A DNA stretch of 64,000 bases, from contig QHYK01000051.1 in the NCBI GenBank assembly GCA_003224085.1, positions 1 through 64,000 on the forward strand, written 5' to 3'. Shown piece by piece: positions 29,790 through 34,434 of this stretch (positions within the stretch are counted from its first letter, which is position 1; each line of letters begins with the position of its first letter). Position numbers and translations under genes: made by a program. The stretch is from Acidobacteriota bacterium. Its GTDB lineage: Bacteria > Acidobacteriota > Terriglobia > Acidiferrales > UBA7541. The notes below the pieces were generated by a model, which did no database searches, was not told the DNA's origin, and saw nothing but the letters and a program-made list of their open reading frames with translations.

Positions 29790-29817
29790 AAAAGGGCGAG
29801 CCGAAGCTCGCCCTTTT
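29790..29817 (-). terminator. Rho-independent terminator with UUCG loop
   Basis: A perfect 12-bp stem (AAAAGGGCGAGC, arms 29790-29801 and 29806-29817) closes a 4-base loop. On the minus strand the loop reads TTCG and the stem is followed by TTTTTGTT. It lies about 27 bases past the stop of the membrane-protein remnant at 29844 and probably belonged to that gene. Confidence 0.8.
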
Positions 29818-29843
29818 CCTCCAGACAGCTGGAAGTTGGCTCT

Positions 29844-29999
29844 TCAGCTCTTGGCAGTCCAGATCGACTTGACCAGGTTCAGGTTGGCATCGAACGCTGC
29901 CGGAACCTGCTTGAAGCAGGCGTAACGGCACAGCGCGGCGTTGAAGATGCCCTGCACTGCCGACATCATCACCGAGAGCATCAGGAGGTAGAGAGAGAT
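29844..29999 (-). pseudogene. C-terminal remnant of a multi-pass membrane protein (DUF6159-like)
   Basis: 51 codons before a TGA at 29844-29846, with an in-frame stop directly upstream (TGA before 29999). The frame reads ISLYLLMLSVMMSAVQGIFNA and then ALCRYACFKQVPAAFDANL. The pattern of a last hydrophobic helix followed by ALYRYA-like and VP.xF residues recalls the C-terminus of DUF6159-type membrane proteins. No body is found upstream. Followed by a strong terminator. Family assignment is tentative. Confidence 0.5.
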
Positions 30000-30236: not shown

Positions 30237-30428
30237 GCTGATCTATCCGCCGAGACGCGATTTCTTGCCTTGTTGTCAGACTTGTTCCGACCCCCAATAA
30301 AGCACAGCTAGCATCCTCCAATTCTCAGGGGAAAACAATTAGCGAAGCAGATACTATTGTCCATTTTGACCTTTTTTGAATGGTGTGACCTGAGTCCCCT
30401 TTGCGCGCGATAGTCAAGCGGCTTTCCC

Positions 30429-30600
30429 TTGACGACTCCCCACGCCTAAACGCGGGGATTCTTCGGAGTTACTATGCGACATGGCCACATACCTCCGACG
30501 ATGTTTCCTGCTTCCCGGGCACACGCCTAAACTCGCGTTTAGGTCCTACTGTGCCTCCACAGGCTAATACCGTGGTTTGCGTCAGCCCGCGGTTGAACGG
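30429..30600 (-). ncRNA. Orphan omega-RNA-like scaffold / IS605-type right end
   Basis: On the minus strand the sequence ends in CTCCGAAGAATCCCCGCG, then TTTAGGCGTGGGGAGTCGTC, then AA: a stem (CCCCGCG...CGTGGGG, 30438-30457) followed by a GTCAA-like terminus, the classic right end of IS605/IS1341 elements, where the guide RNA of TnpB joins its target-derived guide. Two further hairpins lie upstream: CCTAAAC/GTTTAGG at 30526-30543 (perfect 7-bp stem) and CTGTG/CACAG at 30549-30562. With tnpB gone, any RNA would be orphaned; the 'guide' would begin at 30428 and read away. Promoter not identified; the 5' boundary is approximate. Confidence 0.6.
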
Positions 30601-30624
30601 TTCAGTTCCGAGAGATTCCCAGTC
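30472..30624 (-). pseudogene. TnpB (IS200/IS605, IS1341-type) C-terminal remnant
   Basis: The minus-strand frame reads DWESLGTEPFNRGLTQ then TTVLACGGTVGP, ending at TAG 30472-30474. This is the kind of end seen on many TnpB proteins, with a GTEP...RG...ACGG pattern. Nothing of the catalytic RuvC/zinc-ribbon part remains upstream; the fragment starts exactly where the receptor gene at 30624 ends. It overlaps the omega-RNA-like structure listed next. Confidence 0.6.
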
Positions 30625-33600
30625 TAGAACGTAAATCGGACGCCGAGTTCTCCCCATAACGCATGGGGAATGATGGTGCTTGCCGGGGCGATGAAACCGA
30701 CAGGATGACCGAATGTATTGGTACCCGAGTTATTTGGAGTATAGCTGGCAATGCTATTGCTGTAGTTGTTGCCGTAGTTGGCGCGATTCGTCAGGTTGAA
30801 CGCTTGCGCGAGCAATTGCAGGTTCATGCGCTCTCCGAATTTGATGTTCTTCGCGAGGCGCGTGTCGAGTTCAAAGAAGGGATCGCCGCGGAGAGGATCG
30901 TACTTTGCAATCGTGCATCCTTGCGTAACGCCGTTCAACCCATAGAAGCAGTTCTGGGCCGCCGTGTTCGCAGCGGAGCCACTGCTAAAGCCAGCGGGCG
31001 CAAAAGCTAGCCAGTTTGTAGGATCGTTGGTTGGAACAACAACCGCATTCGCCGTTCCACCACCGGTGTTTAGCGTGTTGGAAGAATTGGTCAGGTTGTA
31101 AGGGCGTGCGGAACCGAACTGCAGGATCGGTGAGAACTGGAAGCCCTTCGGCAAGTCCACGATTCCGCTGACGGTGACGTGGTGGCGTTCATCGTTGACC
31201 GAAGGGCCCCACTCGTAGCTGGCAAACGGATTCGTCGAGAGCCTCGGGTAGTTCCGGTAGGAAGTGCCTCCGCCGTCGTAAGAATACGCCCAGGCCAGCG
31301 TGTAGTTCGCAGCGAGTTGAAAGCGGTGGCTCATTCGCTCGCGGAAACTGAAGTTTACCCCGTCGTAATGCTCACGGCCAATGGACGCATCGACGCGAAC
31401 GCTCCCCAGTTCCGGCAGCGGCGGGTTCGAGGCCGTAAACGCCGCATCGAGCGGGCGAGTGCAGCAGGTTCCGTTCACCGGCACCTTCTGATCGATATTG
31501 ATGGTCTTGTTTTCGTGCAAACCAAGCACGTGGGTAAATTCCGCCTCAAAGGCGGTATTGGAATTCAGAGCCCAGCTATAACCTCCGTTGAACTCCTCCG
31601 TAACAGGGTTGCGATAATTGGGATCCATCAGGCGGCCTATGCTACCCGGGTTGAGCTGCGCGGACGGAGCCGCAATCGTGGGCATGGGGTCCACGCCGTA
31701 ACGCCATTGGCCCAGTGGTATGTTAGTTCCCGGTACGGTGTCTTTGACGGGGTCGCTGATGTCGAATAAGGTCTGAAAGATAGTCGCATTGGCCTGCTGC
31801 TCCATGAACAACGGGATGTTCTGAAACACATTTCCGAAGTAGAGACCGTAGCCCCCGCGAATAACGTGCTTGCTCTGGCCGGTCAAATCGTAAGCGAAAC
31901 CGACGCGCGGGCTGAAGTCTTTGTTATCGTCATGCGGGACTGTGCTGACGTAAGGATTGGAGATGGGACTATTTAGCGCCACGAGTTCCTGATACGTGCG
32001 GCTGTTCTTGATGTCCGATAGGCCGATCAAGTTGAAGTCTTTATCCCACCGGAGGCCAAGGTTAAGCGTAAGACGGGGGATAACTTTCCAATTATCCTGA
32101 GCGTAGAGACCGAGCTGCTTGGTGGCCACGAGGAAGTACGGATTGCCATTGGCGATGGACATTTCCGTTACCAAGCCTGGAGTAGCGAATCCTTGCGGAT
32201 ATGCTGACGGATTTGCTGTGATCACGCTGGGGTTGGCTCCAAAGCGAATCAAAAGCGTGGGATTGAACTCAAAAAAGCCGCCCTCGACGGGGTTGTGAAT
32301 GAAGTCCACGCCCCCCTGAAAGGTATGATGCCCGACGCTTTTTGAGAGGTCGTCTTTGAATTGCCATTTCTTCTGGAAGGATTGTTGAGGAACGTTGGTG
32401 TTGGTGCCGAACGAGGCGTTTGGGAATATGATGTTAGGGGCGCGCAGATTACTATCAATCAGGTTATTCCAATACTGGTAGCCTGCTGTCAACTGGTTAA
32501 TGGTGGTATTCGATAGATTGGAGTTCAACGTAAAGTTGCTCACGATCAGATGGTTCCTCGTGAAGTTGCCTTCGGTAAGGTCCATGGTGGCGTCGGACTG
32601 ATCATTAAGGCTGTCGTTGACCTGCGAGGTGTAGCTGAGGTACGCACTGTTCTTGTTGTTGATGACCCAGTCGAGCCGGCCGTTGTATCGCCACTCAAAA
32701 AAGGGACGCGGAATTGTAGGCGAGGGCTGATCCGCGAAACCGTTCGCCTTCGCTATGGTAAGCTGAGTAAAAGATATTGCGTCCACCGCCTGAGCCTGGT
32801 GTTCACGTTCGCGTTCGAGGGCCAAGAAGCCAAACAGCCTATCTTTCTTGAATGGGCCTCCGGCAGACCCGCCGAACTGCTGACGTGTATAGTCTGGATG
32901 AGAGGGAATCGTGCCGCTTGGGTGAGTTGGCGTTGGCCCGACGCCAGTGGGATCCTTCTCATCGGTGTCTAGAGCGGTGTCGCGGAAATAGCCAAAAACG
33001 GAGCCGTGATAGTTGTTGGTGCCCGACTTGGTGATCATGTTGATCGCCGCGCCTTCCGAGCGTCCGTTCACCGCCGAGAAGCGCTGCGTGCTGATCTGGA
33101 ATTCCTGAACTGCTTCCAAGGGAAGCTGCATCACAGGTCCACCCACCGTATTGTCTTTGTTATCCACACCATTGACGGTGACGTTGACGTTGCGGCCCCC
33201 GTCTCCGTTCACGGAGAGAATTGCATAGCGGTTTTTTGTAGGGTCGTAGGAGTCGGCGGGCTTCACTCCCGGGGCGAGATAAGCGAGATTGGCGACGTCC
33301 CGTCCGACCATAGGAAGCTCTTCGACCTCTTTGGGCGTAATGTTCTGGCTTACGTCCGTCTTCGTTTGGTCTATAAGCGGGATGGCTTCGCCGGTGACCT
33401 CAATGAGCTCGCTTGCCGCGCCCGGCTTCAACTCGGCGTTGACCGCTGCCGTCTGTCCCACCAGGATTTCGATGGTCTGGGCAATGGGAGCAAATCCCGT
33501 CTTGTTGACGGTTACGGTGTAGGTGCCTGCGGGCAATAATTCAAAACGGTAGAAACCGGTGTCGTCACTCGACGCGGTCCGCGTAATGTCGGTTGCTTTG

Positions 33601-33758
33601 TTCTTTGCGACGACTTCGGCGCCGCTCACAACTGCTCCCGATTTGTCCGTGACTGTGCCCTGGATCGTCGCGCTGGCGGTGGCCTGGGCAAAAGCGTTGC
33701 TGCTTCCAAGGCTCAACAGCAAGACCGCTAGCACCAACAAATACATAGCTCTTCTCAT
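30624..33758 (-). CDS. TonB-dependent receptor, Oar-like
   Basis: About 1044 residues from the ATG at 33758, preceded by GGGGAGAGG. The signal peptide (RRAMYLLVLAVLLLSLGSSNAFAQ) and carboxypeptidase-regulatory domain (ATIQGTVTDKSGAVVSGAEVVAK...LLPAGTYTVTVNKTGF) are followed by a plug (ITPKEVEELPMVGRDVANLAYLAPGV) and a barrel ending in GELGVRFTF. A longer frame upstream to 33971 is rejected, as it only adds low-complexity residues. The stop (TAG at 30624) abuts a tnpB/omega-RNA remnant, so the insertion spared the reading frame. Ligand unknown. Confidence 0.9.
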   Translation of the reverse strand: MRRAMYLLVLAVLLLSLGSSNAFAQATASATIQGTVTDKSGAVVSGAEVVAKNKATDITRTASSDDTGFYRFELLPAGTYTVTVNKTGFAPIAQTIEILVGQTAAVNAELKPGAASELIEVTGEAIPLIDQTKTDVSQNITPKEVEELPMVGRDVANLAYLAPGVKPADSYDPTKNRYAILSVNGDGGRNVNVTVNGVDNKDNTVGGPVMQLPLEAVQEFQISTQRFSAVNGRSEGAAINMITKSGTNNYHGSVFGYFRDTALDTDEKDPTGVGPTPTHPSGTIPSHPDYTRQQFGGSAGGPFKKDRLFGFLALEREREHQAQAVDAISFTQLTIAKANGFADQPSPTIPRPFFEWRYNGRLDWVINNKNSAYLSYTSQVNDSLNDQSDATMDLTEGNFTRNHLIVSNFTLNSNLSNTTINQLTAGYQYWNNLIDSNLRAPNIIFPNASFGTNTNVPQQSFQKKWQFKDDLSKSVGHHTFQGGVDFIHNPVEGGFFEFNPTLLIRFGANPSVITANPSAYPQGFATPGLVTEMSIANGNPYFLVATKQLGLYAQDNWKVIPRLTLNLGLRWDKDFNLIGLSDIKNSRTYQELVALNSPISNPYVSTVPHDDNKDFSPRVGFAYDLTGQSKHVIRGGYGLYFGNVFQNIPLFMEQQANATIFQTLFDISDPVKDTVPGTNIPLGQWRYGVDPMPTIAAPSAQLNPGSIGRLMDPNYRNPVTEEFNGGYSWALNSNTAFEAEFTHVLGLHENKTINIDQKVPVNGTCCTRPLDAAFTASNPPLPELGSVRVDASIGREHYDGVNFSFRERMSHRFQLAANYTLAWAYSYDGGGTSYRNYPRLSTNPFASYEWGPSVNDERHHVTVSGIVDLPKGFQFSPILQFGSARPYNLTNSSNTLNTGGGTANAVVVPTNDPTNWLAFAPAGFSSGSAANTAAQNCFYGLNGVTQGCTIAKYDPLRGDPFFELDTRLAKNIKFGERMNLQLLAQAFNLTNRANYGNNYSNSIASYTPNNSGTNTFGHPVGFIAPASTIIPHALWGELGVRFTF

Positions 33759-34434
33759 CTTGGCCTCTCCCCTTATGCAGCCAAAAGCTGCAGTTACCCT
33801 TTTTCCTTGCGAAGTCGAACGTTTGCTGCCTTGATCGCACACCTGGAATCGGCGAGCCCTGGCCCACGGGGACGTTCGGAATGGCCCAACACACCTCGAC
33901 ACACGCAGTAGCAGGACTTCAGTGCAGTTCGGCCTGGCTGTTATCGATATTGCCCCGGATAAACCAAACATGACGGAAACTCAATTCCCTGGAAAATTGA
34001 GTTCGACAAGCACGGCTTCGAATTCTTTGGGGCAATTCATGGGCCAAGGACATCAATTCGCAACTGGCTGAAAACACAGCACATATCTGAACATACTTCA
34101 CGCGGTTTACGGAATTATAGAAATAGGTATCGATAATATACAAGAACTCATAGAGGTGAGTTTGCGACCACTGCTGGCCACCCCCGAGCCCGTTGCGACA
34201 GGGCGGGTGCAGGTGCGTGGCTTGGACGGCATCCTCTCAGAACTGGAGACCTCCAGAGTGGATTTCGCTTGCGTGGGGAAAACCCTGCAAGAGTTAAGAA
34301 AACGCCTGGTCTGCTGCTATCCTCCTTGCGGAGAAGCGGTCCTTGTTCGCAGGCAATTTCATCGAGGCGGAACTGCCTGCTCAGTCAGCGCGGAGTTTGT
34401 TCCGCGGCCACGGGCCGGGAAAGAGATTCGCTAC
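33759..34434. other. Intergenic region with an inverted repeat
   Basis: About 675 bp between a minus receptor gene and a plus epimerase gene. An exact 9-bp inverted repeat AACTCAATT/AATTGAGTT (33979-33987 and 33996-34004) is present about 220 bases upstream of the receptor. An A/T-rich stretch at 34110-34145 may hold the epimerase promoter. The open frame from 34156 runs into the epimerase, but its first 93 residues are not family-like. Confidence 0.4.

Follow-up and report, generated by a model that had tools for sequence, protein, structure and literature searches.

The locus

The window, by which the whole 64 kb stretch analysed here is meant, carries on its minus strand an IS605-group remnant at 30572-30429 (hereafter the window copy). 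A gene that we take to encode an Oar-like TonB-dependent receptor ends 51 bases upstream of it. The features of the locus are the following.

30624..33971, minus strand: presumed Oar-like TonB-dependent receptor gene, an ORF of 1115 aa that reads toward the window copy and has homologues at the same place in the congeneric genomes G006, G012 and G008
30573..30623, minus strand: spacer of host sequence that separates the Oar-like gene from the window copy (no match to the IS605 family; comparison with G006 and G012)
30429..30572, minus strand: 5'-truncated IS605-group right end, equal to a complete predicted omega-RNA (reRNA) scaffold of 144 nt with a TCAA end (BLAST homology, covariance model match, consensus pairs)
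30472..30570, minus strand: last 32 tnpB codons and stop, corresponding to residues 377-408 of the C21 TnpB (translation against the C21 protein)
30438..30457, minus strand: terminal stem-loop adjoining the guide, stem 4-like, which doubles as the subterminal hairpin at the right end of the transposon (window-strand fold, alignment A1)
30413..30428, minus strand: putative guide GGGAAAGCCGCTTGAC, the host flank 3' of the window copy (sequence; length of about 16 from an excerpt of PMC8612924)

The window copy terminates in ...GGGAGTCGTCAA at 30429, and GGGAAAGCCGCTTGAC then runs from 30428 downwards on the minus strand, just where a reading of the sequence alone had placed a putative guide. The subterminal hairpin (30457-30438) and the terminal TCAA (30432-30429) are the two marks of an IS605-group right end. 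That sequence-only reading had recognised such an end, with its stem structure, on the minus strand, and the identification is borne out by homologous right ends at 25 further places in the genome, by a 153.4-bit match to covariance model R1 and by a fold z of -4.0. As for the GTCAA-like terminus it described, the element closes in TCAA, and so do all 22 of the other own-genome copies (of 25) whose match reaches the end; IS608 has TCAA at its right end too. The element had been drawn out to 30624 and has to be shortened to 30429-30572, the point at which homology stops: the BLAST matches of the 25 other places overrun 30572 or 30429 by a few chance bases at most, and their 5' start lies at 30572 in 16 and further 5' in none. 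Instead of some 50 tnpB codons, only 32 and the stop (30472-30570) are present, and the remainder of the 61-aa ORF at 30657-30472 derives from host DNA, which supplies its first 29 residues, residue 29 spanning the border. This ORF has no Pfam match at E <= 0.001. No tnpA or tnpB gene is thus left at the window copy, tnpB being reduced to 32 codons, and because of this and of the missing Pfam match the window copy is filed as a fragment of an IS605-group element and not as an element. The lack of a nuclease, likewise claimed, holds at the locus and not for the genome, where C21 encodes a full-length family TnpB.

No left end adjoining a short target motif was found in the window for this copy. 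The left ends of C21, C91 and C17, compared with the whole window, gave nothing with E below 0.2, the best left-end match being one of 21 bases that falls on the right-end hairpin itself, and a full-length element query had one match on the window contig (among the 40 of 66 candidates scored). Having no left end, the window copy should therefore not excise. Six further right ends of the same genome (C46, C157, C138, C119, C25 and C90) break off on their 5' side no more than about 160 bases from the terminus, and no left end was detected for them. A selective retention of right over left ends was set aside as unproven, since left-end remnants with no right-end match exist as well (C126, C108, C11).

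Two side observations concern the surroundings. The guide-position flank and the element terminus together hold a six-base inverted repeat, GTCAAG / CTTGAC, within 30409-30435 of the window. The stretch 29800-29994 of the window, between the two Oar-like genes, recurs in many congeneric genomes at 76-92% conservation (in G014, for instance, at 92% over 108 bases) and overlaps a small ORF on the minus strand at 29981-29844.

The family in the genome and its congeners

The genome comprises 6.8 Mb in 159 contigs, and the right end matches at 26 places, the window included; two of these, C148 and C122, probably belong to a single copy that another insertion has interrupted. The related elements that the sequence-only reading expected are found both here, at the 25 other places, and in at least four of 35 other congeneric genomes, at most 14 candidates being scored per genome, so that copy and genome numbers are lower bounds. 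A full IS605 copy with the same end, which it proposed to look for, is C21, with 1535 bases that follow TTAC, begin with CGAGGGG... and close in ...TCAA. The motif TTAC precedes the left end at 12 of the 13 places read, the exception being C147 with TTATC.

The C21 TnpB has 408 residues and the Pfam domains HTH_OrfB, OrfB_IS605 and TNB, and its residues 12-387 match the TnpB chain 8bf8, presumably ISDra2 TnpB, with an E of 7.7e-67. In an alignment with the designed nuclease 9yyg, which has the same length, D, E and D of the partner stand opposite the acidic residues of the motifs VDM (D), VET (E) and RDENA (D). These three are presumably the RuvC residues. For ISDra2 TnpB, D191 and E278 are named in an excerpt of PMC8612924. 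C21 is absent among the ten Y1_Tnp matches in its genome, so it can have retained no more than a remnant of tnpA; at C17 there is a tnpA frame that runs for 146 codons without a stop and includes an HVH motif.

Three copies, C45, C91 and C114, lack a tnpB core but keep both ends, the left one flanked by TTAC and lying 265-277 bases from the right terminus. They score 131-140 bits with R1 and are better candidates for mobile solo scaffolds than the window copy. Scaffolds of this tnpB-less kind, with TnpB homology from residue 369-379 or so, occur besides in G008 (C371, C402) and G006 (C13, C84, C148, C178, C233), and among all of them left ends were recognised only in the three own-genome copies. 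Perhaps those of the three genomes form one amplified PATE-like family.

Some further arrangements were met in the family. At C58:104761-104820 (L185) a mini element of 60 bases follows TTAC, in which half of the left-end hairpin is fused directly to half of the right-end hairpin, with a TCAA end. At C90:43253 (L049) the element's own terminus, reversed, precedes the right-end hairpin and creates a long palindrome, TTGACGACTC...GAGTCGTCAA. The insertion that apparently splits the C148 end from C122 (L046, L039) has the terminal repeat TTGA(C/T)CTCTGCATAAATAATGCAAT, its halves lying on two contigs. L149 (QIAU01000034.1), in a MAG of gp1 Acidobacteria, has TnpB residues 336-408 at 95% identity and a scaffold of 146.8 bits by R1; this copy in another acidobacterial group may reflect a recent transfer or a mixed bin.

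Fold and covariation of the scaffold

Taken together with 20 flanking bases, the window-strand sequence has a folding energy of -67.8 kcal/mol (z = -4.0), a stability that none of 200 shuffles reached. This fold, with the last hairpin in the family register, was laid on alignment A1, whose 37 rows are the window copy, 15 of the 25 other own-genome copies and 21 of 27 copies from G008, G006, G018 and G003, those omitted (10 own, 6 others) being short, split or at contig ends. On A1, 93.2% of cells form a pair, and the covariation score reaches 0.214, compared with 0.137 +/- 0.006 for shuffled alignments (0/500); 104 cells are changed on both sides against 41.5 +/- 6.4, numbers that give no probability, the scaffold being partly tnpB coding in the longer copies and the copies being related. 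Slid versions of the structure score 0.096 or less on A1, a comparison biased in favour of a structure that, like this one, is drawn from a member sequence. Two other statistics were no higher than in the shuffles. For pairs changed on both sides, 120 of 500 shuffles of A1 came out as high, and 280 of 500 of A2 (19 of the 21 congener copies, without G006:C112 and G006:C65); for further pair types all 500 did so with either alignment. RNAalifold on A1 reproduces helices 4 and 5 and a part of helix 6 and differs in its other pairings.

The window copy retains 42 of the 44 consensus pairs. Its last hairpin is altered and has nine pairs in its own fold; the loop is UUUA in the family register and UUAG in the minimum-energy fold of the window copy itself. 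By eye, a pseudoknot that joins the bases directly ahead of the guide to the 5' part is possible as a pairing of GAC (30545-30543) with GUC, in columns that barely vary in A1. As in ISDra2 and IS608, the scaffold of the guide RNA shares sequence with the 3' end of tnpB and extends to the right terminus (excerpt of PMC8612924), and the UUUA loop of the family register recalls the UUUA tetraloop at -20 to -17 of the ISDra2 omega-RNA (excerpt of PMC10097598). According to the same excerpt, deletion upstream of the last 116 nt of the ISDra2 scaffold left cleavage undiminished, the 5' region being dispensable; the window copy keeps 144 nt next to the guide position, against the 116 nt that suffice there.

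The covariance model and its reach

Model R1 was built from 19 copies of G008, G006 and G018 and from none of the genome under study. It matches the window copy at 30572-30430 with 153.4 bits and an E of 2.9e-37, the only match in the 64 kb at E up to 10, so that the covariance-model check proposed by the sequence-only reading came out in its favour. In the genome as a whole at least 22 matches were obtained, the window included (150 of 1824 candidates scored). The model was also applied to 30 of 72 TnpB loci, namely 29 non-acidobacterial ones and L149, together with 18 own-genome loci. Of the 29, it recovered 19 at E <= 0.1, and 15 of these also at E <= 0.01. Every such hit lies on the strand of tnpB and begins no more than 60 bases from where the tnpB match ends; three are partial (about model positions 4-71). 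The taxa include Burkholderia, Nostoc, Anaerovibrio, Mailhella and Bacillus-like ones, and some loci share a genome. Among the 18 own-genome loci of this set only L051 matched (E 0.08).

The covariation score and the R1 match describe a conserved structured RNA that ends at the right terminus, as is expected of an omega-RNA. Because R1 finds the window copy as well as the tnpB 3' ends of distant loci, the scaffold is, to judge by sequence, the genuine omega-RNA of this TnpB clade, the independent R1 test being stronger evidence than the covariation statistics. The orphan omega-RNA-like scaffold of the sequence-only reading is thus right as anatomy: a covariance model match with no nuclease at the locus. 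Rfam, run on the whole window at the gathering score, gave no match. A search of 30300-30750 with E up to 10 returned JPX_2 at 15 bits, at 30307-30366, outside the element, and it was rejected as chance.

The guide sequence and its possible targets

In the own genome, targets were sought as the 20-mer made of TTAC and the guide, with up to three mismatches. It has no TTAC-flanked target within this limit, its only matches to the 20-mer being the window copy's own flank (with TCAA) and one site with TTTC, and the proposed search for guide-matching sites thus came back empty there. Across 36 congeneric genomes there were 14 matches, these two included, against 19 for a reversed control pattern. 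One of them, G005:C9:1105, has TTAC and a single mismatch; its surroundings have no BLAST similarity to the window, and it was set aside as a coincidence, though an uncommon one. Viral contigs gave one exact match of 18 bases, against 0 and 1 for two control patterns. The last bases of the guide can pair with the element terminus, a pairing that would hinder the guide. Guide length is about 16 in an excerpt of PMC8612924, where it is also suggested that TnpB with its reRNA cuts the donor joint left by excision.

Age of the insertion

Three congeners were found with both flanks, G006, G012 and G008, in which homologues of the Oar-like gene (85, 82 and 53% identical in protein) stand before the same downstream block and the element is absent; the insertion is thus lineage specific. 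Only five alignment columns distinguish the window copy from its closest sisters (C151, C65 and one of G008), so an intact fold is expected without selection. The idea that the scaffold has been repurposed as a regulatory RNA, which would call for conservation of the locus over species, is not supported by these observations: it is absent in three congeners, its sisters differ at five columns and no TTAC-flanked site lies within three mismatches in the own genome. Just behind the Oar-like gene, G006 and G012 have a hairpin and, after it, a U-rich tract (fold z of -1.6 and -2.8). By eye, the host remnants on either side of the window copy resemble the two arms of this terminator of the congeners, 30573-30623 resembling the left arm. 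Within 30250-30750 of the window there is no terminator-like site and no sigma-70-like promoter.

Interpretation

The window copy is very probably a recent, 5'-truncated relic of an IS605-group transposon, and most likely inert. An IS608-like transposon, with its left end after TTAC and its right end at TCAA, would have inserted downstream of the Oar-like receptor gene and would afterwards have lost tnpA, the left end and the whole of tnpB apart from 32 codons, leaving the whole scaffold with host flank in the guide position. The scaffold RNA could arise by read-through from the Oar-like gene, inside whose 3' UTR it would lie, and could be bound in trans by the C21 TnpB. TnpA should not excise the window copy, in which case no donor joint (TTAC and guide) would ever arise and the RNA would be left without a target; this is why the window copy is most likely inert. 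One observation counts against the reading as a relic, namely that the 5' edge of the scaffold (CGGU, the first pair of helix 1) coincides exactly with the break. Near-identical breakpoints are seen in C46, four bases further 5', and in G006:C105, at most one base further, and these would fit a retention of scaffolds. The shared breakpoint was judged, on a rough estimate, to be compatible with chance, since short remnants cluster close to the terminus.

An active orphan omega-RNA is an unlikely alternative, in which the C21 TnpB (or that of another copy) would load the RNA of 30572-30413 and take its guide from the flank. A single nuclease would draw on many such dispersed guides and cleave incoming or sister DNA with the empty site. 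The scaffold is complete by R1 and keeps 42 of 44 pairs, it is longer than the 116 nt sufficient for ISDra2 cleavage (excerpt of PMC10097598), at least 22 R1 matches including the window's exist in the genome, and so does a full-length TnpB. Yet the 20-mer recurs in the own genome within three mismatches only at the window copy's flank and at the TTTC site, congeners have fewer matches than the control despite the TTAC site in G005, the guide end can pair with the terminus and 30250-30750 has no sigma-70-like promoter. Service by another TnpB, which the sequence-only reading put forward, is conceivable in so far as the cognate C21 TnpB is in the genome, but with no left end the copy should not give rise to the donor-joint target. 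A wider proposal is rather improbable: the C21 TnpB would serve dispersed solo scaffolds, each with its own guide (the window copy, C46, the PATE-like C45, C91 and C114, and copies with broken tnpB), and the window scaffold, lying in the Oar-like 3' UTR and cut precisely at its 5' edge, would be a host-transcribed guide RNA.

It is quite doubtful, too, that the copy has been domesticated as a 3'-UTR element whose hairpins terminate or stabilise the Oar-like mRNA in place of a terminator split by the insertion. The hairpin and U-rich tract of G006 and G012, the position of the window copy between arm-like remnants and the want of a terminator-like site in 30250-30750 would suit it, but no T run follows the hairpin of the window copy, the insertion is young and lineage specific, and the likeness of the remnants to terminator arms was judged by eye. 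Units that keep both ends without core genes do exist in this genome (C45, C91, C114); that the window copy is itself such a PATE- or MITE-like non-autonomous unit, moved by TnpA in trans, has next to no probability, with no left end in the window and the Oar-like gene ending 51 bases upstream. A function for the window copy is therefore not supported, and as a single locus this relic is ordinary transposon debris.

Stand-alone or trans-acting omega-RNAs of TnpB and IscB systems are reportedly treated by Altae-Tran in 2021 and Meers in 2023, and the window copy resembles them in being a scaffold with no nuclease of its own beside a family that has one; unlike theirs, its expression and use are putative. 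Within known elements, TTAC is shared with IS608 (excerpt of PMC8612924), whereas ISDra2 uses TTGAT, and unlike both the window copy lacks a left end and tnpA and retains just 32 tnpB codons. The closest published text found on tnpB-less elements with an omega-RNA is PMC7290912, in an excerpt of which a PATE-like element of Halanaerobium hydrogeniformans lacks tnpB and keeps 58 nt of its tail, the whole right end of 160 nt and a left end of 28 nt. The window copy has no left end, and C45, C91 and C114 are closer to that element than it is. A term search of PMC12558985 met no mention of stand-alone or tnpB-less elements.

The R1 model reaches TnpB loci of distant taxa, while Rfam has no gathering-score match in the window. 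As an IS605 family decays, complete guide-RNA scaffolds can stay behind at scattered places in a genome that still encodes the nuclease, and the two together make service in trans testable.
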